Shown piece by piece: positions 3,469-34,806 of a DNA stretch of 34,920 nucleotides. The notes below the pieces were generated by a model. It was not told the origin of the DNA and did not search any database. It saw only the letters and a program-made list of their open reading frames with translations. The first letter of the stretch is position 1. Each line of letters begins with the position of its first letter. The position numbers and the translations under genes are program-made. The DNA is from an uncultured delta proteobacterium (GTDB lineage Bacteria; Myxococcota_A; Polyangia; Polyangiales; Polyangiaceae), in contig CAITRH010000094.1 in the NCBI GenBank assembly GCA_903894755.1, positions 1 through 34,920 on the forward strand, read 5' to 3'.

Positions 3469-3840
3469 GTGAACACCCGATCCCTTCTAGAAGCCTCCCG
3501 TATCTCCCCCACGGCCACCCAAAAAATGGCCGAGTTCCACGCCGACGTGGTTGCCGAAGTCCAGGCCACCGTTGCACGCGACCCTGTCGTCGTGGTTGGC
3601 ATGTCCCAAAACCCCCACGTAAAGAATGTGCGCAGAGCCCTCAAGGACGCTGCCATCGAGTTTACCTACCTCGAATACGGAAGTTACTTCTCCCAGTGGA
3701 AGCCGCGGCTCGCCATCAAGCTGTGGAGCGGCTGGCCCACGTTCCCTCAGGTCTTTGTGCGCGGGGTTCTCCTCGGAGGCGAAGACCTGACCAAAGCCGC
3801 CCTGGCGGACGGCACCTTGAAAGCGCGGCTGGCCCAGTAA
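3469..3840 (+). CDS. Glutaredoxin-fold protein lacking all cysteines
   Basis: A 123-residue protein whose last 85 residues follow the glutaredoxin fold. PVVVVGMSQNP corresponds to the first strand and active-site loop, GWPTFPQVFV to the conserved cis-proline segment, and VLLGGEDLTKAALADGTL to the glutathione-side GG motif and last helix. The active-site loop, normally CGFS or CPYC, has no cysteine, and none exists anywhere in the protein. Thiol redox chemistry is therefore impossible. A binding or scaffold role is more likely, possibly through retained glutathione-contact residues. The start is a GTG at 3469; an ATG at residue 20 is an alternative. The phosphorylase gene begins 29 bp downstream. 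Confidence 0.82.
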   Translation: MNTRSLLEASRISPTATQKMAEFHADVVAEVQATVARDPVVVVGMSQNPHVKNVRRALKDAAIEFTYLEYGSYFSQWKPRLAIKLWSGWPTFPQVFVRGVLLGGEDLTKAALADGTLKARLAQ

Positions 3841-9098: not shown

Positions 9099-9290
9099 CC
9101 TCGCGGTGCTCCTCATATGGTCACGTAGTGCTGTTCTGTGGACCTCTCGGTGCTCCTTATATGGTCACGTAGTGCTGTTCTGTGGACCTCTCGGTGCTCT
9201 TTGTAGGGTCACGTAGTGCTGTTCTGTGGACCTCTCGGTGCTCTTTGTAGGGTCACGTAGTGCTGTTCTGTGGACCTCTCGGTGCTCTTA
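9099..9290 (+). repeat. 44-bp direct tandem repeat, about 4.4 copies
   Basis: Copies begin at 9121, 9165, 9209 and 9253 (the last truncated near 9290). A partial leading copy lies at 9099-9120, giving an exact 44-bp period. The units are nearly identical; the main variation is TTATATGG versus TTGTAGGG at the unit end. Each unit can pair GGTCAC with the imperfect GTGGACC about 20 bp later. There are no spacers, so this is not a CRISPR array. The rest of the 385-bp gap (9067-9451) holds no gene that I can support. Confidence 0.95.
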
Positions 9291-9421
9291 TCGTATAAGG
9301 GGGGGTGAGGGTCCGAGAGAACGATAGAGCGTCTCGCTTCGGCCCGGCCGTGCTACGGCTGTCCGCATTGTTACTCAAACGAGGGCCTGGTTGATGTTGC
9401 TGTCCGTCCACGAGATGCTCC

Positions 9422-13518: not shown

Positions 13519-13592
13519 GCGCCCGTAGCTCAGCTGGATAGAGTGTCGGCCTTCGAAGCCGAATGTCGCAGGTTCGAGTCCTGCCGGGCGTA
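13519..13592 (+). tRNA. tRNA-Arg (anticodon TCG)
   Basis: A 74-base cloverleaf. Acceptor arm GCGCCCG pairs with CGGGCGT (first pair G-U), followed by discriminator A. The D stem is GCTC/GAGT. The anticodon stem TCGGC/GCCGA encloses the loop CTTCGAA with anticodon TCG. The T stem GCAGG/CCTGC encloses TTCGAGT. The 3' CCA is not encoded. It lies 64 bp after glpD and directly before a stretch of gene debris, a common setting for integration next to tRNA genes. No second copy of its 3' end was found in the window. Confidence 0.95.
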
Positions 13593-13655
13593 CGAAACAC
13601 ACCAGTGTTTGACTGGTCTCGCGCTTCCATACGCCGTACCGCCGCGGTTAAGCCT

Positions 13656-21065: not shown

Positions 21066-21192
21066 AAGTGCTGCGGGTCGGTCCCGAAGTGCTGCGGGTC
21101 GGTCCCGAAGTGCTGCGGGTCGGGTCCCGAAGTGCTGCGGGTCGGTCCCGAAGTGCTGCGGGTCGGTCCCGAAGTGCTGCGGGTCGGTCCCT
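21066..21192 (+). repeat. 21-bp direct tandem repeat, six copies
   Basis: Copies of AAGTGCTGCGGGTCGGTCCCG begin at 21066, 21087, 21108, 21130, 21151 and 21172. The third copy has one extra G, making it 22 bp; the last ends CCT instead of CCG. The array lies in the 172-bp gap between two convergent genes. An ATG at 21050 with GGGGAG upstream would read through it as repeats of PEVLRVG, shifting at the extra G into a serine/arginine/alanine repeat. The array contains no spacers or obvious hairpin. Confidence 0.95.
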
Positions 21193-21201
21193 AAGTGGCG
21201 C

Positions 21202-22308
21202 TCACTTCAGCAGGGAGCGAACCCAGGCATCCTCCACGGTCGACTCGGGAAACGTGACCACGTCGCCGTCCGCTTTGCGTCGCGTCATCGGACACGCTGG
21301 AAAGGCGGCTGCGAACCTCTTGTTGGCGATCTTCTTGCCGGTGGTCCGCTGGAACACCGTGAAGTCGTCCGTGTAGCGCGTTTTGGCCACGGTAAAGGTT
21401 TGGTACGGGCAGTTGCCCGCCCCGGTGCGCTCCCAAGCGTTGTGGACAATCAAGTCGACGTCGCTCAGGGTGCGGACAGCCCCTTTGTCGCCGACGAAGC
21501 GGACCCAATGGCCCGTGTCTGCGATGAGCGCCGAGCGCGCGCTTGTCCTCGTTTCTTCTGTCGGGATAAACTTGACAGGGCCTCGGGTGATGTTGCGAAG
21601 CAGCTCCCAGAGGACACTCTGGGCTTTGATGCTGAACGTGAGATCGAGGGAAGCGCCCTCGGACGACGTCGCCTTTGCGGCGAACGGGAAGACGGCGTTT
21701 TTTCCCACGACCTGGTCGACGGTAGCGGCGCCTAGAAGTGCGATGAGGTCGATTTCGACGGGCCCTTGCGAGAACTTTTGCCCTGCCACCTCCAGCGTAT
21801 CTCCCGGCTCTCCTTTGAGGGTCGCTCGAAATTTCGCCGAGCCTGGCAGGGTGCGGAACGTCGCGCTCCCCTCGCAGTTGGTAGTGTCGGCGCAACCGAA
21901 GTCGTCCGAGCCGCTTGGTCCAGCCGTTCCGCTCGCCAATCGAACTTTCGGTGGGGTCGCCACGCGGTCGATCAGGACCGAGCCGGTGGCGCGGCACGTC
22001 TGGAGGGCATTGAGCTTCGCCTCGATCTTCACCTCGAGGGTTGCCTTGCCCACGGGCACCTCTTTTAGAGGCACATCGAACGACCCTTTGGACTTGCCCG
22101 ATATGGACTTGCCACTGAGCGCAGCAAAGCCGGTGACGCCAGAGAAACTGATCTTGCCATCCTTTGCACAGGGGTTTTCGACGGTGACGGTGATCGTGGT
22201 GGTTGTGGCGGCGGTGGTGACTTTGGCCTCCGTTGGTTTGCCTCCGCAAGCACACAGGGTCAGTGCGACAGCCAAAATTTCGAGGGGTAGGTGAGTACGT
22301 TGGTGCAT
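21202..22308 (-). CDS. Lipoprotein of unknown function
   Basis: A 368-residue exported protein. The signal peptide LEILAVALTLCAC ends in a lipobox, with Cys21 the likely lipid anchor, followed by a short threonine-rich stretch (TTAATTTTITVTV). The mature protein appears beta-rich, with several Cys pairs, and contains no motif that I recognise. It is convergent with the lipoprotein gene at 19389, from which a tandem repeat separates it. It is divergent from the TPR lipoprotein at 22441. Confidence 0.82.
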   Translation of the reverse strand: MHQRTHLPLEILAVALTLCACGGKPTEAKVTTAATTTTITVTVENPCAKDGKISFSGVTGFAALSGKSISGKSKGSFDVPLKEVPVGKATLEVKIEAKLNALQTCRATGSVLIDRVATPPKVRLASGTAGPSGSDDFGCADTTNCEGSATFRTLPGSAKFRATLKGEPGDTLEVAGQKFSQGPVEIDLIALLGAATVDQVVGKNAVFPFAAKATSSEGASLDLTFSIKAQSVLWELLRNITRGPVKFIPTEETRTSARSALIADTGHWVRFVGDKGAVRTLSDVDLIVHNAWERTGAGNCPYQTFTVAKTRYTDDFTVFQRTTGKKIANKRFAAAFPACPMTRRKADGDVVTFPESTVEDAWVRSLLK

Positions 22309-22399
22309 AGGCGCACCCTAACCGTCTTCTTGTCGGAGCTCGCCGAAAAGCGTAGCGAGCCAAGCAAAGCGCCAACAGGCTCGCGGGCCTTCTCCCCTG

Positions 22400-22429
22400 T
22401 GGACTTCCCGACGCAGGCTCTCGTAGACT
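22400..22429 (+). promoter_or_regulatory. Candidate promoter abutting a start codon
   Basis: TGGACT (22400-22405) and TAGACT (22424-22429) are separated by 18 bp. The -10 box ends 11 bp before the ATG at 22441, so transcription would begin only a few bases ahead of it. No ribosome-binding site precedes that ATG, which would fit a near-leaderless message. It was found by eye only. Confidence 0.3.
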
Positions 22430-22440
22430 CCGCCTCAATT

Positions 22441-23370
22441 ATGAAGAACCCGAGGATCGGAAAGTGGCTCCGAGTGGCGGTGCTCGTAGGGCTCACGGGA
22501 TGCAGTCGCGACGCTATCGAGGCGGTCAACCTCGCCAACGAAGCTGACGAGCTGAAGAAGACGAACATCGACGGTGCCATCGACAAGTACGAAGCGGCAT
22601 CGGAGAAGGACCCGAGCAACCATCGGATCCTCTGGAAACTTGCCCTTGCGTATCAGAAGAAAGACGACTGGGCCAAGGTCGGTTCCACCTGCGCCAAGGC
22701 GGAGGCCGCCGACGAAAAAAGCAACAAGCGAAAGACCTTTGCCAGCTACCACTTTCTACATGGCCACGCGCTCCTCGCCCTTGCAGGCAAGGGGAACGGG
22801 GGGTGGGCCGACGCGAAGGGACCTCTGACCACGGCGGTTCAGATCGATCCAAACTACGCCGAGGCTTACCGGGATCTCGGCGACGTATTGCTTCATCTCG
22901 ACGACGAACAAGGGGCTCTCGAGCATTACACGAAGGCCGCGATGACTCGTCCAGACCACCTCGAATACTATGTTCCTCTGGCCGATCTTTATCGTCGTCT
23001 CGGGCTGCTTGATCTGTCCGCGCAGGTTCTCAAGGAGGCGCTCGGGTTTGCCAAAGCGGGCGACGAGCAGCTCTTTTCAATTCACGCACTTCAGGGGTTT
23101 CTTCTCGAGCTGAAGGGCGATCTCCCCGGGTCTCTTGCCGCCTACGAGCTCGCCAAGAAGGCATGTGGCGACTGCGACAAGCACCGAGAGGCGTACTTCT
23201 ACCTCGGGTCGGCGTATTTCCAGGCCGGCGCGTCTCGCAAGACGGAAGCGTTGCAGCAGCTTCGGGCGTTTTGGAAGACGGCGTGCGTGGGCGGGTTAGC
23301 GGCCCGTTATGGCGACCAGTGCGCTCAGGCCCGCGAGATCGGGCAAAAGCTCGGAGAGAGCTTCAAGTAG
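22441..23370 (+). CDS. TPR-repeat lipoprotein
   Basis: A 309-residue protein. The signal peptide WLRVAVLVGLTGC ends in a clear lipobox with Cys21. The mature part consists of tetratricopeptide repeats, recognisable as AIDKYEAASEKDPSNHRILWKLALAYQ, LTTAVQIDPNYAEAYRDLGDVLL, and ALEHYTKAAMTRPDHLEYYVPLADLY, with further degenerate units to the end. It would be an envelope-anchored protein-protein interaction scaffold. It precedes the giant TPR gene by 111 bp on the same strand, suggesting a shared transcript or function. The ATG at 22441 is chosen because it starts the signal peptide. Confidence 0.85.
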   Translation: MKNPRIGKWLRVAVLVGLTGCSRDAIEAVNLANEADELKKTNIDGAIDKYEAASEKDPSNHRILWKLALAYQKKDDWAKVGSTCAKAEAADEKSNKRKTFASYHFLHGHALLALAGKGNGGWADAKGPLTTAVQIDPNYAEAYRDLGDVLLHLDDEQGALEHYTKAAMTRPDHLEYYVPLADLYRRLGLLDLSAQVLKEALGFAKAGDEQLFSIHALQGFLLELKGDLPGSLAAYELAKKACGDCDKHREAYFYLGSAYFQAGASRKTEALQQLRAFWKTACVGGLAARYGDQCAQAREIGQKLGESFK

Positions 23371-23481: not shown

Positions 23482-26400
23482 ATGGAACTGCACGAGCGGC
23501 TGACGCAACTCGAAAACATTCGTGATTGGCCGGGACTCGCCGAGGAGCTCGAAAAGGCCCTCGCTTCTACCGGAGCGAATCCCGAGAAGGCCGCCTACCA
23601 CCTGCGCTTGGGACGGGTGCAAGCGCACAAGATCCTAGCCGGTGTCAAGGCCATCAAGCACTTTCAAGATGCCTACAAGCTCAATCCAGAGCTCGCTGAA
23701 AGCCTTTCGGCCGCACGCGCCGTGTTCTGGGACCTCGCCAAACATCCGAAGGTACAAAGACTTCTTGACCACGAGCTAAAGGACGCGTTGTCGCCCGCCC
23801 GTGCGAGCGCCATCTTGCTGGAGCTCGGTGACGTCAGCTCGGACATGGGCGACGACGATCGAGCTCTCATGGCCTACGCGAAGAGCTTGGCGGAGAGCGG
23901 AGGGAAGAATCTCGAGGCCAGCGCATGCCTCGCCGACGCCCAGATCGACCCGGCCCATTGGCAAGAACGTCTGGCCGAGCTCCTTCGCGCCTCGAACAGC
24001 GAGGACGACGTCACGAGCAAAGGGCGTCTCCTTCTTCGCGCCGCTCGTCTGGCTCGCCGTTTTGCTCCCGAAGAGTACGAAGCCCTCTTGACCCGCAGCT
24101 ACGAGACCGACCCTCTGTCGGTACAGACGGCGGCTCTCTACGAAGGACTTCTTGCCGACGACAACCGCCTCGACGCGCTCGAAGCACTGCAAAACCGGCT
24201 GCTTGACGCCACAGGAGACCGGGCCACTCGCGCCCTTCGTGCCGGCGTTTTTGGCGCACGCTGGGTTCAGCGTCATCAAAACGTCGACGTTGGCGTGCGG
24301 TTTCTCGAGGACGCACTTCGCAACGATCCGCTCCAAGAGGCGGCGTTCTTCTACCTCCGTGAAGCTTACGGTCGTCAGGCGGGGGCTTGGGGACGGGTCA
24401 TTGCGCTTGCTGAAGAGTCGACGCGCGCAAGGACCGACGCAGTCTATCTCCTCGCCCAGATCGGCCTGATCTGCTGGCGCGAAATGAACGACCTGGCAGG
24501 GGCTCGAAAGGCATTTCAGCGTCTGGCCGAAGTCCAGCCGGACCACTCCACGCTTCGAGAGTTCGAAGCCGAGGTCGGAGCCGAGGTTGGAGTCTTGGCC
24601 ACCACCCGCGAGGTTGACGTCTTAGCTGCCGTGGCTCCGTCCGTTGCTCCAGCGGCTGCTGCCGCGGAGGCCCCAACGACTCCGCCACCGGCGCTGCAAG
24701 AACCGGAACGTCCGACCGCACCACCACCGCCGCCGCCGCAAGTGGTGGACGACCCGAAGATCGGCGAGCTTCGCGCCCTTCTCGAAAAACAGGAGGCTGC
24801 CAAACGCTACAACGAGTTCGTCAAGACCCTTGTTGCGCTCTCGGCGCTGGTCCCGAGCGCCGCGGAGAAGATCGCGCTTCTCGGCAAGGCGGCCGACCTT
24901 TACGTGGGACGTTTTGCGAACCAGGCCGAGGCGGTGAAGGTCTACGAGCAGATCCTCGCGATCGACCCTGAGCACCCGGCCGCGAGCGACTTCCTACGCT
25001 CCGCCTACGAACGTCGACGCGACTGGGAGAGCCTTCTGGGGCTGCAGCGACGCGAAGCTGTGCGTCTTGTCCGCGGTCCTGCACGAGCCGCCAAGTTTCT
25101 CGAGATAGCGAAGCTTGCGACCGAGCGGGTGAGGAAGCCCGAGATCTGCAGCGAGCTTTGGAACGAGGTCCTTGCGAGCGACGACAGCAACGTGGACGCG
25201 ATCATGGCGCTCGCCTCCATCCATGAGCGCGCCAAGGACTATGTGTCGTTCGCCAGCGTTCTCGAGAAGCAGGTCGGCATCACGGTCGACGCTCCCGCGA
25301 AGATCCAGCTGCTTGCAAAGCTCGGTGCCCTCTATGGCGATCGTCTGGCCAACGACGACGGTGCGGTTGGGGCTTGGCGCGCGCTCCTGGCGCTCGATCC
25401 CAACGATCGGCGGGCCCAAGACGCGCTCAAGAAGAAGTACCTCGCGCTTGGCCGGTGGGACGATCTCGAGGTCTTCTATGTGGAGTCGGGCAAGTGGGAC
25501 GAGCTCATTCGCACTCTCGAGCAACAAGAGGCCAAGGAGACCGCGGCGGAGGCCAAGACCAGTCTCCTTTTCAAGCTCGCGCAACTCTGGGCCGATCGCA
25601 AACAGCGTCCAGAGCGCGCGGCGAAGAACTACGAGAAAGCGCTCGAGATCGATCCATCGAGTCTTCGAGCTGCCGAGGCGCTGATCCCGATCTACACGGC
25701 GGCCAACCAGCCCAAGCCTCTCGCGTCGGTTCTCGAGGTCAAGCTCCGACACGAGGCGGATCGTCACGAGCGTCTCTTGCTCCTCCGCGAGGTTGCGGCG
25801 TTGTACGAAGGGAAGGTCAAAGAGCCGGTCCTCGCTTTCGAGCGTTACTGCGCGGCTTTCGATCTGTTTCCCGGCGACGAGCAAACCCGCACCGATGCGG
25901 AGCGAGCTGCGCGTGCGACGTCGAGTTGGGAGACGCTCATCACGAGTTACCGCGCTGCGATCACGAGCGCCGACAGCGAAAACGACCTGGAGACCGGCAC
26001 GGCGATCCGGTTGAAGCTTGGCCGCGTGCTGGTCGACGAAGTGCAGCGGATCGACGAGGCCCTCGAGGTTTACCGCGCTGTGTACGATGCCGAACCGGAG
26101 CATCCGGAAGCTCTGAGCGCGCTCGAACGCCTTTACCGTCAGACCGAGCGGTTCCCCGAGCTCCTTGGAATTTACGAAAAGAGGCGGGACCTTACGAGCG
26201 AGCCCGAGGAAAAGAGGGCGATCCACTACTCCATCGCCAAGCTGTACGAAACCGAAGTGCGCGACCGCGCAAAGGCCATCGAGACCTACCAAGCCATTCT
26301 CGAGGACGATCCGAGCGAGGGACCGGCTCTTGCGGCGCTTGACGTACTCTATGCGGAGCTTGGCCAGTGGCAGCCCTATGCGGAGACGCTTCGATGTCGG

Positions 26401-29400
26401 ATCACTCTCGAGGCAGACGAGCGTGTACTTACGGACATCAAGTTCCGGCTGGGGCAAACGCTCGAGAAATATCTATCGGACCCGGCGGGGGCACTTGAAA
26501 ACTACCGCGAGATCCTGGCAGTAGATGCGGGTCATGAGGGGGCGAGGCTCGCTCTCGAGGCGCTTCTGCTCGTCCCCGAGCTGCGGGCCGACGCTGCCGA
26601 GACGCTGGAGCCCATTTACGAGCAGCGCGGCGACTGGGAGAAGCTGATTTCGACGCTCGAGACGCTCTGCACCCATGAGGGGGACACCTCGCGACGCGGG
26701 GCACTTCTAAGGAAGATAGCGCATGTTTGCTTTGGGGAGCTCAAGGACCATGCGCGGGCGTTTTCCTCCCTTGCGACAGCGCTTCGCGAGGATCCCAAGC
26801 AGCTTGATATTCGCGCCGAGATGGAGCCCATTGCGGCCGCGTCGAACCGTTGGGATTCGCTGGTAGCGCTGTACGCAGCGATTGCAGCGGAGCTGGACGA
26901 TCAAGAGCTGGCTCGCGACTACTGGCTGCGCATTGCGGCTATTGACGAGGACCGCGAGCTGACCGACGACGCAGCGGGGGCGTACGGTCAGGTTCTTGCG
27001 CTTGATCCGACCGATGCAGAGGCGTTGGGGTCCCTTGAGGCGCTGTTCCGACGGACGGAGCGTTGGAACGAGCTGATAGCGGTGCTTCAGCGACGCATTG
27101 CACGGACTGACGAGGCCGTTCTCAGCGAGGAGCTTCTGAGTCAGATCGCACGGATTTACGATGAGAAGCTTGGCAAGCCCGCGGAGGCTATTGAAGCATT
27201 CCGCAAGGTGCTCGAGCAGGACCCCGCGAGCATGCGGGGGCTGACAGCGCTTGACGCCCTGTTTTTGCGACAGTCGATGTGGACCGAGCTTGCGGAGAAC
27301 CTAGACACGCAGCTTTCGCTTGCAAGCACCGATGACGCGCAGCTTGCATTGATGTTGCGGCTTGCGGCGCTTCGGGAACGGGAGATGGGCCAGGTTGATG
27401 TGGCCATCGAGGGATACCGTGCTGTGCTTGAACGCGAGTCGAGCAGTGCGGAAGCGCTCACGGCACTGGAGCGTCTTGGGCAGCAAGCGGCGCACGAGGG
27501 GCTCATTGCGGATCTTCTCGAGCCGTTCTACCGTCACCATGGAGATCACGCGAAGCTGATTGGGGTTCACGAGGTCCAGATACGTCTAGCTCCAGATTCG
27601 GACCGACGGGTGGAGTTGCTACATCAGGTTGCACAGCTCCATGAAGACGCAGCGGGCAATTTGTCGGCGGCGTTCGACACGTATGCGCGGGCACTGGCAG
27701 AGGATCCCGCGGGGGAATCGGCGCGAGCCCAACTGGACAGGGTAGCGAGGGAGGCGGGACGTCTTCAGGATCTTGCACAGGTACTTCAGCAGCAAGCCGC
27801 GCGGGTTCAGGAGTCCGCGCTTGCCGCCGAGCTGTTTACCGCAAGTGCGCAGGTCTACGAGGTAGATCTTGGCGAGGTGGACACCTCCATTGGGCTGCAT
27901 CGAAAGGTTCTCGAGCTTGACGCAGCGAATCTAGCCGCTGCGGAGGCACTCGAGCGCCTTCTGCGAGGGGCCGGGCGTTACCAAGAGCTATCGGCCATAT
28001 TGCAGCGGAAGTCAGAGATCCTGGTGGAGGTGGATCTTCGGAAGGAGGCACTTTTCCAGGCGGCGTCCATCGAGGAAGACATGCTGCAACGGCCTGAGGA
28101 GGCCATTTCGGTTTACAACAAGGTACTCGAGCTCGACGCAGAGGACTCGGGGGCACTTGACGCGTTGGTGCGGCGTTACGCAGGTCTTTCACGTTGGCAG
28201 GACCTGCTTGCGACCTATGCGCGCAAGGTTGATCTTGTGGTGGACACGACGGAGAAGAAGGCCATCTACTTTGCGGTGGGGGCGGTCTACGAGCGCGAGC
28301 TGACCGATGGGGCGCGGGCGATTGCGACGTACGAGCGGATCTTGGAGCTCGATCCGGAGGATGTAGCTGCGTTGGCCCGTCTTGATGTGCTCTATGAGCA
28401 GGGGAGCAACTGGCAAGAGCTTCTTGGAGTTTTGGGGCGTGAGAGCGAGCTGGCCGTGGAGCCTGCGCAGTCGCTGGGGTTTCGCTATCGGATTGCGGCG
28501 CTCTACGAGAAGCGTCTTGGGGATGTCGCCAGGGCGGTGGAGCTCTATCAGGAGATCCTCATCACGCAGAGCGACCATGGGCCGACTCTAGAGGCGCTTG
28601 AAGGGATCAAAGACGGCACTGCAGAACCGTTAGCAGCTGCAGCGGTGCTCGAGCCCGTGTACGAGGCGGCGAGCGACTGGGGACGATTGATTCGGGTGCA
28701 CGAAGTACAGGTGACGCACGCGAGTGATCCGTTCCAAAGAGTCGAGTTGTTGCATCGCATTGCAAGGCTTCACGAGGAAGCGCTGGGGGATGCTGCGTCA
28801 GCTTTTGCGACGTTTGCCAGGGCGCTCGTGTTGGACAATGGGAACGAGGCAACGCTGACGAACCTGGAACGTCTTGCGCAGCTTCTTGGGCGTTGGTCCG
28901 AGGTGACGGGGCTTTACGATGCGGAGCTTGACAAGCTTGTTGGGGCCCCCGATCGTTTCGTGGAGCTTGGACTGAGGGAGGCGCAGATCTTCGAGGTCCA
29001 AGTGGAGGACCTTGACAGTGCGATCGCACGTTACCGCAGGGTTTGTCAGGTCGAGCCCGAGAACCAGAATGCCATACGATCTCTCGATCGGCTGCTGTCG
29101 CAGACGGAGCGTTGGTCCGAGCTCGCGGGGGTGCTCGCCCTCGAGGCAGAGACAGCCCCGACGGACGACGAGGTTCTTGAGTTCAAGTATCGGCTAGGTC
29201 AAGTTTATCAACTTCGCCTGGGAGACCTAGGGCGCGCGATTGGGTCGTACCGCGATGTACTGAGTGCGGCGCCCGAGCATGGGCCGTCACTGGAGGCTCT
29301 CGAGGGGCTCTTTGCTTCGGGAGTCCAGCAGGCGACCATCGCCGAGCTTCTCGAGCCGCTCTACAGACAGAGTGCGGAATGGGAGAAGCTAGCGCGGGTA

Positions 29401-32400
29401 TACGAGGCACTGCTTGCTGATACGCACGGACAGGAAGACCGGCTGGCGTCCTATTACCGTCTCGGGGAGCTCTACGAAGAGAAGCTTTTCGATGCGGCGC
29501 GGACCCTGGATGCTGCAACGCGGGCGCTCAAGGAGTACCCGTTGGACGAGAAAGCGGGGGACGACACGCAACGTCTTGCCGGGACTGTGGAGGGGGGCTG
29601 GGAGACACTTGCGAACGCGTACGCGGACATCATCGATGAGCGCGCAAACGAGCCCGCGGTACAGGCGCCCATCGGGCGTCGTCTTGCACGGGCGTATGAA
29701 GACGAGCTGGGGGATGTAAGCAAGGCAGAAGAGACGTACAAGTATGTACTGTCTGTGGATCCACTGGATGTCGAGACGCTGACCAATCTCGATCGCATTT
29801 ATGTGTCTCTGGAGGCATGGTCCGACCTTGCGAGGATCTTGGAGCAGCGTGTTTTGGCAAGGGCCGAGCGCTTCGAGTTGGTGGAGCTGTATGCGCGCCT
29901 CGGGGAGGTTTACGAGGAGCGATTGGGGGCAATGGACCCAGCGATCGTGGCGTACCGGCGGATTTTCGACGAGCTCGAGCCAGCGCATGAAGGGGCCATT
30001 GCGGCACTGGCGCGGATTTACGAGGCGCGTGGGGCGTGGACCGAGCTTGACGTAGTCTACCAGCGAGAGCTTGCCAATGCGTCGGGCGACACAGAAGAAG
30101 CTTCCATTCGGGCAAAGCTTGCTCAGCTGGCGGCCAGCAAGCTGCACTTGCCGCAACGGGCGATCGACACGTGGAAGATCGTGTTGGATCTTCGCGGGGA
30201 GGATCCGGAGGCGTTGGCTGCGCTAGCGACGCTGTACGAAGGGGAGCAGGCGTGGGCGGAGCTTGTGGACGTATTGGAGCGGGAGCACGACATTGCATCG
30301 ACCGATGAGGATCGGGTCAATCTGTTGTCAAGGCGAGCCCGAGTGTTCTGCGACAAGCTGGCGCGCGATGACCAGGCGTTGGACGACTACGGTCGCATTC
30401 TGGATGTGGATTCCTCGAACCTTGCGGCACTTCGGGCCATGGCAGCCATTCGTCGTCGTCAGGACGACCCGCAGGAGCTGGTTGCAGCACTTACGCAGAT
30501 TGTCGACCGCGCTGAGGCGATGTTGGACGGCGAGGAGCTGAAAGAGCTCTATCGCGAGCTCGGCAGGACCTACGGACAGCGACTGGAGCAGTCCTACGAT
30601 GCTGCGGAGTCTTGGCGAAAGCTTCTCCAAGTGGGACAGGACTTCGAGGCGTTCGATGCTCTCGAGGCTATTTACAGGACTGAAGAGCGCTGGATTGATG
30701 TCATTGAAGTGAAGATGCAGCGTGCCAAGGCTCTCGAGGAGCCTGCCGCACGCATTGAGGAGCTTCGTGGTGTAGCGGGTCTGTGGCGTGATGTCGCGGG
30801 AGAACCCGACTCGTCGCGAGTTGCCTACGAAAAGATATTGGAGATTGCACCGACGCACGACGAGGCGTATGCGGAGCTTGAGAAGCTCCACACGGTAGCG
30901 TCGCGTTGGGAGCCGCTTATCGAGCTGTACCTCGGGCGTTTCGAGACCCGCGAGCAAGTGGTGGAGGGCGACGCTACGCGCCATCCAACTGCGGAGAAGA
31001 CGGAGCTGCTTCGTAAGATTGCGAAGGTGTTCGAAGAGCGGCTCGACGACAAGAACCAGGCATTCGACGCGGTGATGAACGCGTTTGCGCTGGACATCCA
31101 CGATCGGGAGACAACCCGTTACCTCGAGAAGCTTGCACAGGCGACGGGACGTTGGGCGGAGGCGCTACAGAACGCCAATGGAATGCTCAAGGTCGAGACG
31201 CAGCACGCGGAGAAGATTCGTCTCTGCCTGCATCTGGCCAAGTGGTACGGCGACGACCTGGGACATCCTGAGTATGCGCAGCCCTATTATGGGCAGATTA
31301 TTCAGATCGACCCGAACAATGTGGGAGCCATGCGGCAGCTCGCTGCGCTCCACCGAAAGGCTGGCAATCACCAGCAGGTGGGGGTCACGCTGACACGGGC
31401 GCTCGATGTTGCGGTACAGGACACAGACCGCAAGGAGATCATGGTGGATCTTGGCGAGCTGCTCGATCTTCAGATGAAGGAGACCGACCAGGGACTCGCG
31501 TTCTTTCACCGAGCGCTCGAGGTCGATCCTGGGTTCTTGCCGGCCCTCGAGAACCTGGAACGCATCTTTGCAGCGCGCAACTCGCACCGCGACCTTGTCG
31601 ATGTGCTGCATCGGAAGGTCGCTGCGCTGACCGAACCCGAAGCGCTGGTGCAGACCAAGCTGCGCATTGGCACTATCTACGAGACGCTTGGAGAGCACGC
31701 TCGTGCGGCGCAAGTTTACCGTGAGGGGTTGGAGCTCGACCCGGTGCATCTTGCGACCTTGCGAGGGTTGGCACGCGTCTATGAAATCCTCGAGCAGTGG
31801 ATTGAGCTGGTCAAGGTGCTCGAAACCGAGCTCGAAGTGGTGGCCACGGAGCGCGACCGGATTGACCTTTCGCTGCACCTAGCGAGCCTGCAAGAACAGC
31901 GGTTTCTCAAACCCGAGCTCGCCGCACTGCGTCTTGAGCAGGTGCTGGAGGTCGACCCGAACCACGAGGACGCCTGCGTGTCACTCGCCCGGTGCTACCG
32001 CAAGTTGCGCCAATGGCCTGACTACATTGCGGCCCTGGAGCGTCACATCTCGGCGACGTCGGACCGCAAGACCAAGAGCGATCTGTATGCGGCGATGGCC
32101 CAAGTGTACGCAGAGGAGCTCGAAGATACGGAGCGAGCCATCGACGCCTATCGGAACATCATCGAGCTTGACGAACGGAATGTTCCTGCTCTCGAAGCGC
32201 TGGCAAAGCTGTACGAGAAGCAGGAGGATGCCGCGCAGTCCATCGACTACATGACCCGTGTTGCCGAGCTCACGACCGAGCCTAGGCTGCGGGTCGAGGC
32301 TTTTTTCCGCATTGGAAAGGCCATCGACGACAAACTGGGGGACCGGGTGACGGCCCAAGAGCGCTTTGAGCTGGTGTTGGATCTAGACCCAACCCATGTG

Positions 32401-34806
32401 CAGACGCTGGCGGCACTGCGGGCGATTGCCCACGATGGGGGCGATTACGACAAAGAGGCCCGATACCTGGATCAAGAGCAGGCCAATACGGCCGCGCCGC
32501 GTCCCAGGTCCAAGCTTCTCGTGGAGCTTGGAAGGCTCCGCGAAGAGGTGCTTGGGGACCATGAAGGGGCCGTTGTGGCCTGGGAAGGGGCCATGGAGCT
32601 CGACCCGGAGAACGAGGACGCTGCAGCCCCCTTGTCGGACGAGTACATCCGCCAGGAGGCTTGGGACAAGGCCGAGACCCTCCTCGAGCTTCTGGTGCGC
32701 AAGGGCAGCCGCCGTGAGCGTCACGAGCAGCACGTGCTTCAGAACAAACTGGGGCAGGTTTGTGCCGCCCAGGGCAAGGATGACAAGGCTCTCAAGGCGT
32801 ACCAGGCGGCGCACCAACTCGATTTGACCGACCAGACCAGCACACGTGGCCTCGCGGAAGTCTGTTTCCGTCTCAAGGACTGGCAAGCCTCTCTCACGAA
32901 TTTCCAGAAAGTGCTGACCTCACTGGGCGACCAGGAAACAGAGGAGCGTGCCAATGTCTACTTCAAGATTGGCTGTATCAAACGGGAGCAGGGCCAAGCC
33001 AAGCAGGCCATCAGCAACTTCGAGAAGGCTTTGGGGGTCGAAACGGGGCACAAGGCCACGCTGGACGCGCTCGTAGCCCTCTATGTGGACCTCAAACAGG
33101 TCAAGCAGGCGGTCGAGTACAAGCGCCAAATTCTAGACCAGGTGTTGGAAGGCCCCGAGCGCTTCAAGATCCTCTGGGACATTGCGGACCTGTGGCAGGA
33201 CCAGGACAAGAATCCGCAGAGTGCCTTGGAGGCCCTCGAAGAGGCTCGTGAGATCGATCCGCAAAACAGTCCCCTCTTGATGCGCATGTTGCAGCTTTAC
33301 CAGACTACCGAAAGCTGGCGGAAAACCATCGATACCCTGCAGGCCATCGCTGACCTCGAGAAAGATCCCGGGCGCAAGGCCAAGCAGCTCTACGCCATGG
33401 CCCAGCTCTATCGCGACAAGGAGGACAACCAGGACAAGGCCGTGGAGCTCTTCGGCGAGGCACTGGACCTCAATCCATCCTACTTGGAAGCCTTCGAGCG
33501 CATCAATCGGCTCCTCAACGACCGCAAAGACTGGAAAGCCCTCGAACGTGCGTTCCGCAAGATGCTTCGACGCCTCAAGGTCGCCAATATCGACAATCCC
33601 GAGCTCCAGTTCAGTCTCTGGCACAGCCTCGGCATCATCTACCGCGACCGCATGAAGGAATTCGTTCACGCCATCGAAGCGTTCAAGATGGCCACCACCT
33701 ACCAGCCCAATAACGCCAATGAGCGGCAGATCCTTGCCGAGCTCTATGAGGTGACGGACAACCTCGAGGCGGCTATCAGCGAACACTCCTTGGTGCTCCA
33801 GCGTGAGCCCTCCCGTGTCGAGCCTTATCGGAGTCTGTACAAGCTGTACCAAAAGTCCCATGAATACGATCGCGCCTGGTGCATGTGTTCTGCATTGGCG
33901 TTCCTGGACAAAGCCGACGAAGACGAGCGACGCTACTTCGAAGACTACCGTCCCAGAGGCATGATCCAGGTGAAGTCCAAGCTCGACAACGAGCAATGGG
34001 TCAAGAACCTGTTCCACAGGGACGAGAACCTGTACATTGGTAAGATCTTCGAAATGATCACCCCTTCCGCGATCCAAGCCAAGCTTGCCCAGCTCAAAGA
34101 CTCCAGGCAGCTCCCTGCGCTCGACAAACGCTTCAAACAGGATCCGGCTACCAGCACGGTGACCTTCGCAAAAACCTTTGGATGGGCCGCAAGTGTGCTC
34201 GGCATTCAGCTCCCCGATCTCTATGTCCGTAACGACGTCCGCGGCGATCTCTTGGCAGTGCCCTCCAATCCACCGGCCAGCATCGCAGGACAGAACGTCC
34301 TCACAGGCTACAAACCCGAGGAGCTCGTGTTCATCGTCGGCAAGCACCTCGCGTACTACCGCGGTGAGCACTACATCCGCAATCTGTTCCCAACGCTCAA
34401 TGAGCTGAAAATGCTGCTCTTTGCAGGGATGAAGATCGTCTTGCCGGACTTCTCTGTCCCCGCCGACATGGGACAGGCCGTGCTCATCACCGCCCAGGAG
34501 CTTGCGCGCTACATGCAGCCCCTTCCTCGCGAGCAGCTCAAGATCGTGGTGCAGAAGTTCGTCGACGATGGCGCTCGGGTCGACCTGAAACGATGGCTGC
34601 AAACCATCAACGTCACTGCGCTTCGGGCCGGGCTGCTGCTCTGCGGCGACCTCGAGATCGCCGGCCGGATGATCGAACAAGAGCCGCAATTTCCTGGCGA
34701 CCTCACCAAGGACGACAAAATGAACGAGCTCCTCGTCTTCTCCGTCAGCGAGCAGTACTTCGCGCTCCGCAAGACGTTGGGGATCGCGGTCGGCAACGCG
34801 TCCTAA
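23482..34806 (+). CDS. Giant tetratricopeptide-repeat protein with C-terminal peptidase-like domain
   Basis: A single uninterrupted frame of 3,774 codons starting with MELHERLTQL after GAGGCG. No signal peptide is seen. Residues 1 to about 370 are TPR-like. A proline-rich linker, including a PPPPPP run, spans about residues 374-420. About 36 tandem double-TPR modules then run to about residue 3475. Each carries a W-x-x-L-type helix and a LELDP-type turn, with a usual spacing of 71-73 residues. Four modules are longer, about 89 residues, and carry LLEPxY. The last 290 residues are globular, with FIVGKHLAYYRGEHY (3617-3631) and RAGLLLCGDLEIA, resembling an M48 peptidase without HExxH. A cytosolic scaffold role is inference. 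Confidence 0.93.
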   Translation: MELHERLTQLENIRDWPGLAEELEKALASTGANPEKAAYHLRLGRVQAHKILAGVKAIKHFQDAYKLNPELAESLSAARAVFWDLAKHPKVQRLLDHELKDALSPARASAILLELGDVSSDMGDDDRALMAYAKSLAESGGKNLEASACLADAQIDPAHWQERLAELLRASNSEDDVTSKGRLLLRAARLARRFAPEEYEALLTRSYETDPLSVQTAALYEGLLADDNRLDALEALQNRLLDATGDRATRALRAGVFGARWVQRHQNVDVGVRFLEDALRNDPLQEAAFFYLREAYGRQAGAWGRVIALAEESTRARTDAVYLLAQIGLICWREMNDLAGARKAFQRLAEVQPDHSTLREFEAEVGAEVGVLATTREVDVLAAVAPSVAPAAAAAEAPTTPPPALQEPERPTAPPPPPPQVVDDPKIGELRALLEKQEAAKRYNEFVKTLVALSALVPSAAEKIALLGKAADLYVGRFANQAEAVKVYEQILAIDPEHPAASDFLRSAYERRRDWESLLGLQRREAVRLVRGPARAAKFLEIAKLATERVRKPEICSELWNEVLASDDSNVDAIMALASIHERAKDYVSFASVLEKQVGITVDAPAKIQLLAKLGALYGDRLANDDGAVGAWRALLALDPNDRRAQDALKKKYLALGRWDDLEVFYVESGKWDELIRTLEQQEAKETAAEAKTSLLFKLAQLWADRKQRPERAAKNYEKALEIDPSSLRAAEALIPIYTAANQPKPLASVLEVKLRHEADRHERLLLLREVAALYEGKVKEPVLAFERYCAAFDLFPGDEQTRTDAERAARATSSWETLITSYRAAITSADSENDLETGTAIRLKLGRVLVDEVQRIDEALEVYRAVYDAEPEHPEALSALERLYRQTERFPELLGIYEKRRDLTSEPEEKRAIHYSIAKLYETEVRDRAKAIETYQAILEDDPSEGPALAALDVLYAELGQWQPYAETLRCRITLEADERVLTDIKFRLGQTLEKYLSDPAGALENYREILAVDAGHEGARLALEALLLVPELRADAAETLEPIYEQRGDWEKLISTLETLCTHEGDTSRRGALLRKIAHVCFGELKDHARAFSSLATALREDPKQLDIRAEMEPIAAASNRWDSLVALYAAIAAELDDQELARDYWLRIAAIDEDRELTDDAAGAYGQVLALDPTDAEALGSLEALFRRTERWNELIAVLQRRIARTDEAVLSEELLSQIARIYDEKLGKPAEAIEAFRKVLEQDPASMRGLTALDALFLRQSMWTELAENLDTQLSLASTDDAQLALMLRLAALREREMGQVDVAIEGYRAVLERESSSAEALTALERLGQQAAHEGLIADLLEPFYRHHGDHAKLIGVHEVQIRLAPDSDRRVELLHQVAQLHEDAAGNLSAAFDTYARALAEDPAGESARAQLDRVAREAGRLQDLAQVLQQQAARVQESALAAELFTASAQVYEVDLGEVDTSIGLHRKVLELDAANLAAAEALERLLRGAGRYQELSAILQRKSEILVEVDLRKEALFQAASIEEDMLQRPEEAISVYNKVLELDAEDSGALDALVRRYAGLSRWQDLLATYARKVDLVVDTTEKKAIYFAVGAVYERELTDGARAIATYERILELDPEDVAALARLDVLYEQGSNWQELLGVLGRESELAVEPAQSLGFRYRIAALYEKRLGDVARAVELYQEILITQSDHGPTLEALEGIKDGTAEPLAAAAVLEPVYEAASDWGRLIRVHEVQVTHASDPFQRVELLHRIARLHEEALGDAASAFATFARALVLDNGNEATLTNLERLAQLLGRWSEVTGLYDAELDKLVGAPDRFVELGLREAQIFEVQVEDLDSAIARYRRVCQVEPENQNAIRSLDRLLSQTERWSELAGVLALEAETAPTDDEVLEFKYRLGQVYQLRLGDLGRAIGSYRDVLSAAPEHGPSLEALEGLFASGVQQATIAELLEPLYRQSAEWEKLARVYEALLADTHGQEDRLASYYRLGELYEEKLFDAARTLDAATRALKEYPLDEKAGDDTQRLAGTVEGGWETLANAYADIIDERANEPAVQAPIGRRLARAYEDELGDVSKAEETYKYVLSVDPLDVETLTNLDRIYVSLEAWSDLARILEQRVLARAERFELVELYARLGEVYEERLGAMDPAIVAYRRIFDELEPAHEGAIAALARIYEARGAWTELDVVYQRELANASGDTEEASIRAKLAQLAASKLHLPQRAIDTWKIVLDLRGEDPEALAALATLYEGEQAWAELVDVLEREHDIASTDEDRVNLLSRRARVFCDKLARDDQALDDYGRILDVDSSNLAALRAMAAIRRRQDDPQELVAALTQIVDRAEAMLDGEELKELYRELGRTYGQRLEQSYDAAESWRKLLQVGQDFEAFDALEAIYRTEERWIDVIEVKMQRAKALEEPAARIEELRGVAGLWRDVAGEPDSSRVAYEKILEIAPTHDEAYAELEKLHTVASRWEPLIELYLGRFETREQVVEGDATRHPTAEKTELLRKIAKVFEERLDDKNQAFDAVMNAFALDIHDRETTRYLEKLAQATGRWAEALQNANGMLKVETQHAEKIRLCLHLAKWYGDDLGHPEYAQPYYGQIIQIDPNNVGAMRQLAALHRKAGNHQQVGVTLTRALDVAVQDTDRKEIMVDLGELLDLQMKETDQGLAFFHRALEVDPGFLPALENLERIFAARNSHRDLVDVLHRKVAALTEPEALVQTKLRIGTIYETLGEHARAAQVYREGLELDPVHLATLRGLARVYEILEQWIELVKVLETELEVVATERDRIDLSLHLASLQEQRFLKPELAALRLEQVLEVDPNHEDACVSLARCYRKLRQWPDYIAALERHISATSDRKTKSDLYAAMAQVYAEELEDTERAIDAYRNIIELDERNVPALEALAKLYEKQEDAAQSIDYMTRVAELTTEPRLRVEAFFRIGKAIDDKLGDRVTAQERFELVLDLDPTHVQTLAALRAIAHDGGDYDKEARYLDQEQANTAAPRPRSKLLVELGRLREEVLGDHEGAVVAWEGAMELDPENEDAAAPLSDEYIRQEAWDKAETLLELLVRKGSRRERHEQHVLQNKLGQVCAAQGKDDKALKAYQAAHQLDLTDQTSTRGLAEVCFRLKDWQASLTNFQKVLTSLGDQETEERANVYFKIGCIKREQGQAKQAISNFEKALGVETGHKATLDALVALYVDLKQVKQAVEYKRQILDQVLEGPERFKILWDIADLWQDQDKNPQSALEALEEAREIDPQNSPLLMRMLQLYQTTESWRKTIDTLQAIADLEKDPGRKAKQLYAMAQLYRDKEDNQDKAVELFGEALDLNPSYLEAFERINRLLNDRKDWKALERAFRKMLRRLKVANIDNPELQFSLWHSLGIIYRDRMKEFVHAIEAFKMATTYQPNNANERQILAELYEVTDNLEAAISEHSLVLQREPSRVEPYRSLYKLYQKSHEYDRAWCMCSALAFLDKADEDERRYFEDYRPRGMIQVKSKLDNEQWVKNLFHRDENLYIGKIFEMITPSAIQAKLAQLKDSRQLPALDKRFKQDPATSTVTFAKTFGWAASVLGIQLPDLYVRNDVRGDLLAVPSNPPASIAGQNVLTGYKPEELVFIVGKHLAYYRGEHYIRNLFPTLNELKMLLFAGMKIVLPDFSVPADMGQAVLITAQELARYMQPLPREQLKIVVQKFVDDGARVDLKRWLQTINVTALRAGLLLCGDLEIAGRMIEQEPQFPGDLTKDDKMNELLVFSVSEQYFALRKTLGIAVGNAS

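Follow-up and report, generated by a model that had tools for sequence, protein, structure and literature searches.

The giant gene of the window, here the whole 34,920-nucleotide stretch of DNA that was analysed from an uncultured delta proteobacterium, raises two questions: what kind of TPR protein does it encode, and why do modules of one greater length recur along its solenoid? The original prediction had drawn attention to these longer modules and knew of no described protein with such a layout. The observation is confirmed and proves stronger than claimed, and the interpretation placed on it is partly supported. From its position, size and type, the protein very probably belongs to the known GltI/AgmK family; what appears to be undescribed is the layout alone, as no account of periodic long modules was found in the literature searched.

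The gene product is a TPR alpha-solenoid, with many Pfam TPR families matched far above cut-off and helical pairs present in the AlphaFold2 model. An iterated module profile divides the 3,774-aa protein into approximately 45 modules with a usual step of 71-73 residues, and the 72-residue module, which corresponds to two TPRs, makes up most of the protein. This usual step had been read from a W-x-x-L landmark, and it stands, although the landmark itself occurs in only part of the modules. Only four steps of 89 residues (267 bp) are present, at residues 960-1048, 1264-1352, 1641-1729 and 1875-1963. The modules following them begin at 26626, 27538, 28669 and 29371 and carry their W/H landmarks at 26635, ~27547, 28678 and 29380, no more than 3 bp from the ends that had been predicted for four longer steps (about 26632, 27547, 28676 and 29380). 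Each long step contains one LEPxY and the motif is found nowhere else in the protein, in agreement with the inserted helix originally proposed as common to these steps and now recognized as a homologous extra helix. Successive long modules are spaced 4, 5 and 3 modules apart. The count of four odd steps is correct for the 89-residue length, however a conserved 85-residue step (residues 584-668) had been missed.

Features of the giant gene and its surroundings, by window position, are as follows.
22291..23370, plus strand: small TPR protein of 359 aa, immediately upstream of the giant gene
23482..34806, plus strand: giant TPR scaffold gene, an open reading frame of 3,774 aa with TPR families, homologues phylum-wide and gltG upstream in 39 genomes
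24589..24789, plus strand: Ala/Pro-rich variable linker joining the N-terminal modules to the main solenoid, from sequence and length variation in homologues
25231..25485, plus strand: 85-residue module, residues 584-668, a further odd step, kept at 85 in nearly all homologues
26359..26625, plus strand: long module 1, 89 residues (960-1048), from module parsing
26536..26628, plus strand: extra-helix segment 1, LEPIY, predicted helices 1019-1028 and 1035-1049 (AlphaFold2)
27271..27537, plus strand: long module 2, 89 residues (1264-1352), from module parsing
27448..27540, plus strand: extra-helix segment 2, LEPFY, predicted helices 1323-1332 and 1339-1353 (AlphaFold2)
28402..28668, plus strand: long module 3, 89 residues (1641-1729), LEPVY, predicted helices 1700-1711 and 1716-1729 (parsing and AlphaFold2)
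29104..29370, plus strand: long module 4, 89 residues (1875-1963), LEPLY, predicted helices 1934-1945 and 1950-1963 (parsing and AlphaFold2)
33988..34803, plus strand: C-terminal alpha/beta domain, residues ~3503-3774, AlphaFold2 pLDDT 92.5, common to shorter paralogues

The inserted segment of the 85-residue module (25231-25485) differs from that of the long modules; this module occurs in nearly all homologues and is absent from one of them, L068.

Across 41 proteins, comprising the window protein and 40 homologues, step lengths are sharply bimodal, with 72 residues counted 1,071 times and 89 residues 132 times, and a third peak lies at 85 residues (37 times). In the same proteins LEPx[YF] occurs 108 times in the 172 long tails versus seven times elsewhere, an enrichment of approximately 365-fold per residue. 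In the window protein, modules sharing a phase with respect to the long steps resemble one another more closely than expected from permutation (z = 4.7, 0 of 5,000), in a comparison that used a 66-residue module core from which the insert was left out, and this phase similarity is significant in most homologues as well. Autocorrelation at an offset of four modules is modest in the window protein (p = 0.02) because the spacing varies, making phase alignment the stronger test.

Averaging of module similarity over 34 proteins places the modules that follow long modules in a class of their own, type B, with the signature EvQl.ha.Dp.rRVeLLhrIArlyEd ... AF.tyaRAL recurring at each block. The special relationship predicted between the segments after 27547 and 28676 is borne out, both being type B, and the modules at 26626, 29371 and, more weakly, 25702 share the class of those at 27538 and 28669.

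The type-B modules are the following.
25702..25917, plus strand: type-B module (residues 741-812) that lacks the 17-residue insert and precedes the first post-long module by four modules
26626..26841, plus strand: type-B module after long module 1, from the module similarity matrix and type-B profile
27538..27753, plus strand: type-B module after long module 2, from module similarity and type-B profile
28669..28884, plus strand: type-B module after long module 3, from module similarity and type-B profile
29371..29589, plus strand: type-B module after long module 4, from the module similarity matrix and type-B profile

A type-B profile trained without L068 and L071, two divergent homologues with a strict period of four, ranks exactly the post-long modules first in both of them (6/6 in L068 and 5/5 in L071). 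The type-B class and these period-4 members together give a repeating unit of approximately four modules, or eight TPRs, and module sequences thus support a true higher-order repeat with a block of about this size. The original prediction was right that such a repeat exists, however the block is not of about five modules; a clean five-module duplication is ruled out by the 4-5-3 spacing and by the strict spacing of four in L068 and L071.

The block order that was to be compared among homologues is widely conserved. The comparison drew on 40 long homologues of ~3,350-4,680 aa, sampled across the phylum and read fully or nearly so, in which 4-5-3 spacing is found in 33 (34 of 41 with the window protein) at identities from 64% down to ~30% and often near that lower end. 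Most members are hence not exactly periodic. Three other homologues have five or six long modules: six in L068 and five in L071, strictly four modules apart in both, and spacing of 4-4-4-5-3 in L070. Two more (L034 and L061) show the pattern only in part, and L052 and L067 do not yield reliable step lengths. In some distant members LEPxY is lost and the 89-residue length stays. Shorter paralogues in the same genomes (~1,540-1,940 aa) resemble the giant protein in having 72-residue modules and the common C-terminal domain, but no 89-residue step was found in them, so the long-module feature belongs to the giant form.

Such a pattern could be a relic, in which a four-module unit that chanced to include one odd helix was duplicated in tandem and the resulting blocks are kept by descent and folding constraints, with no special role. 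The duplication signal that this requires is clear. In L070 module similarity at an offset of eight averages 96 versus ~53, which on the module sequences reflects two blocks recently duplicated in tandem, and the 4-5-3 pattern would fit later gain and loss of single modules. Within the window gene, the blocks show only faint repetition at the nucleotide level (60-71% over ~40-50 bases, and two further short pairs), indicating that the block duplication is old. Descent alone accounts less well for the preservation of both the 17-residue length and its position at ~30% identity, while the length of the N-terminal linker varies freely, with steps of ~130 to >500 at the place of the Ala/Pro linker among homologues; we therefore regard a relic as an unlikely explanation. 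The L070 homologue is 4,677 aa long, and its two-block duplication spans eight modules.

The predicted structure gives the long modules a physical counterpart. AlphaFold2 modelling of residues 955-2115 (pLDDT 89.3, pTM 0.39), a check proposed with the original prediction, yields five helices rather than four in each long module, the extra segment comprising a short helix of 10-12 residues, a loop and a LEPxY helix of 14-15 residues. Local structure in this model is reliable and its overall shape is not. The TPR superhelices of O-GlcNAc transferase and LGN align with parts of the solenoid model (6eou, Z 18.9, rmsd 19.7 over 343 residues; 6hc2, Z 18.0, rmsd 18.1 over 301 residues), and alignments of known TPR superhelices run through the first long module at large rmsd, neither showing nor excluding a bend; bending of the superhelix at the long modules is plausible on this model. 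The O-GlcNAc transferase and LGN TPR domains are much shorter than the giant protein, and we know of no periodic odd helix in either. Designed consensus TPR arrays (CTPR; 9qhb, 8bu0), which likewise form a TPR superhelix and are the best sequence matches to the giant protein among solved structures, differ from it in their uniform 34-residue repeats, with neither a higher-order period nor extra helices.

An extra helix at fixed positions could serve docking or geometry. Distinct docking surfaces were suggested originally. On such a reading, each long module together with its type-B module would form a site for a partner, such as GltG, the Agl motor or MreB, that binds repeatedly along the scaffold. 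The recurrence of a type-B sequence signature at each block would suit such a role, as would the reported function of GltI as a scaffold for several partners. Against this, conservation in type-B modules and at long junctions does not exceed that of other modules (p = 0.78 within the family and p = 0.89 within the phylum), and the 89-residue length outlasts LEPxY in some distant members. Docking is consequently not favoured, and we consider it improbable. As junction sequence conservation is average but length and position are fixed, a geometric role for the long modules is favoured instead.

The genomic neighbourhood suggests the system in which this geometry would operate. GltI (AgmK, MXAN_4863) of Myxococcus xanthus is a giant TPR protein that lacks a signal peptide or membrane segment and is encoded downstream of gltG, in the gene order gltD-E-F-G-H-I; it has been described from Myxococcales only (PMC3169522). 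It is also reported to be a large scaffold that connects AglQ, GltG and MreB (PMC13104615). The window protein is alike: no signal peptide or transmembrane segment is evident from its sequence, the highest 19-residue hydropathy being 1.57, which fits the GltI/AgmK type. The giant gene lies beside gltG in most relatives; in 39 genomes gltG precedes it in the same orientation at a gap of 0.8-3.6 kb (median 1.4 kb). Of the 71 genomes that have the C-terminal domain, 67 contain GltG, versus 38 of the 70 without it, counts that are uncorrected for relatedness. In two genomes (G104 and G058) the GltE and GltG models find matches among the genes upstream of the giant gene, separated by a protein of GltD size, and in G104 the upstream genes also match GltC and GltF/CglF models; these NCBIfam matches fall below curated cut-offs. 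The small TPR gene directly upstream in the window occupies an equivalent place in G058, G104 and G136. The window genome itself differs, as its giant gene (contig C94) is not downstream of gltD-E-F-G and is unlinked from gltC-G. A gltC-D-E-G cluster is found in this genome on contig C533 (L093, 1085-10615), although in 39 other genomes gltG is linked to the giant gene. The GltJ model gave no match above cut-off in the genomes searched, and the window contig ends after the giant gene.

That the protein is instead another giant TPR protein merely neighbouring glt genes in many Myxococcota would accord with the sub-threshold scores of the Glt neighbour genes, the lack of linkage in the window genome and the failure to find an adjoining gltJ, but is distinctly unlikely given that the gene takes the same place as GltI in gltD-E-F-G-H-I (PMC3169522) in the 39 linked genomes and that its product is of the same size class (GltI is reported at 4,132 aa), composed of TPRs and without an evident signal peptide or transmembrane segment. 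Membership in GltI/AgmK is likely, not proven.

We favour, with moderate confidence, a GltI/AgmK-type gliding scaffold built as a four-module repeat of repeats, in which one extra helix per turn would set the geometry. The giant gene would encode a TPR scaffold located in the cytoplasm and belonging to the Glt/Agl machinery of myxobacterial gliding. Its solenoid consists of 72-residue two-TPR modules grouped in blocks of approximately four, each beginning with a type-B module and ending with a module that carries the extra LEPxY helix. A superhelical turn of TPRs comprises 7-8 repeats (PMC4191447; PMC7885266). As eight TPRs thus amount to approximately one turn, we infer that the extra helix marks each superhelical turn, where it may reset pitch or curvature; the outcome would be a spring or ruler, divided into segments and fixed in its geometry, with a mechanical role in gliding. 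Because the positions of the extra helices are kept phylum-wide, the spacing of long modules is probably part of how this cell-movement scaffold is shaped. The specific proposal that the odd helix count exchanges the concave for the convex face, or resets the pitch, at every turn to give the gliding motor its segmented spring or ruler is offered tentatively, as a reading of low probability. If true, such a spring or ruler would govern both the mechanics of the gliding motor and its spacing, a design undescribed for any TPR protein. GltI belongs to the most poorly understood components of the bacterial focal-adhesion machinery, and the phylum-wide, position-fixed pattern of odd helices provides defined sites to remove or shift, making the idea of a shape-based scaffold testable. 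A natural superhelix with built-in markers, roughly one per turn, could also be of use in the study and design of repeat proteins.

The C-terminal domain is present in 98 of 98 sampled family genomes and in 71 of 141 genomes phylum-wide, with domain-sharing paralogues counted. It matched no Pfam family in a Pfam search and gave weak Foldseek matches to ZMPSTE24, BlaR1, HtpX and BepA. The HExxH zinc motif of M48 was not found in the domain, the corresponding place reading GKHLAYYRGEH. As a lead only, the domain may represent a degenerate M48-type metallopeptidase fold that serves for binding.

Elsewhere in the window, a tRNA-Arg gene (13519-13593) overlaps or lies beside predicted open reading frames, and six copies of the 21-bp unit AAGTGCTGCGGGTCGGTCCCG (21066-21197) adjoin a minus-strand open reading frame (21202-22308). 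An intergenic 44-bp tandem repeat of 4.4 copies with 94% matches is located at 9099-9291; ten other places in this genome carry related copies, identifying it as a member of a dispersed repeat family.
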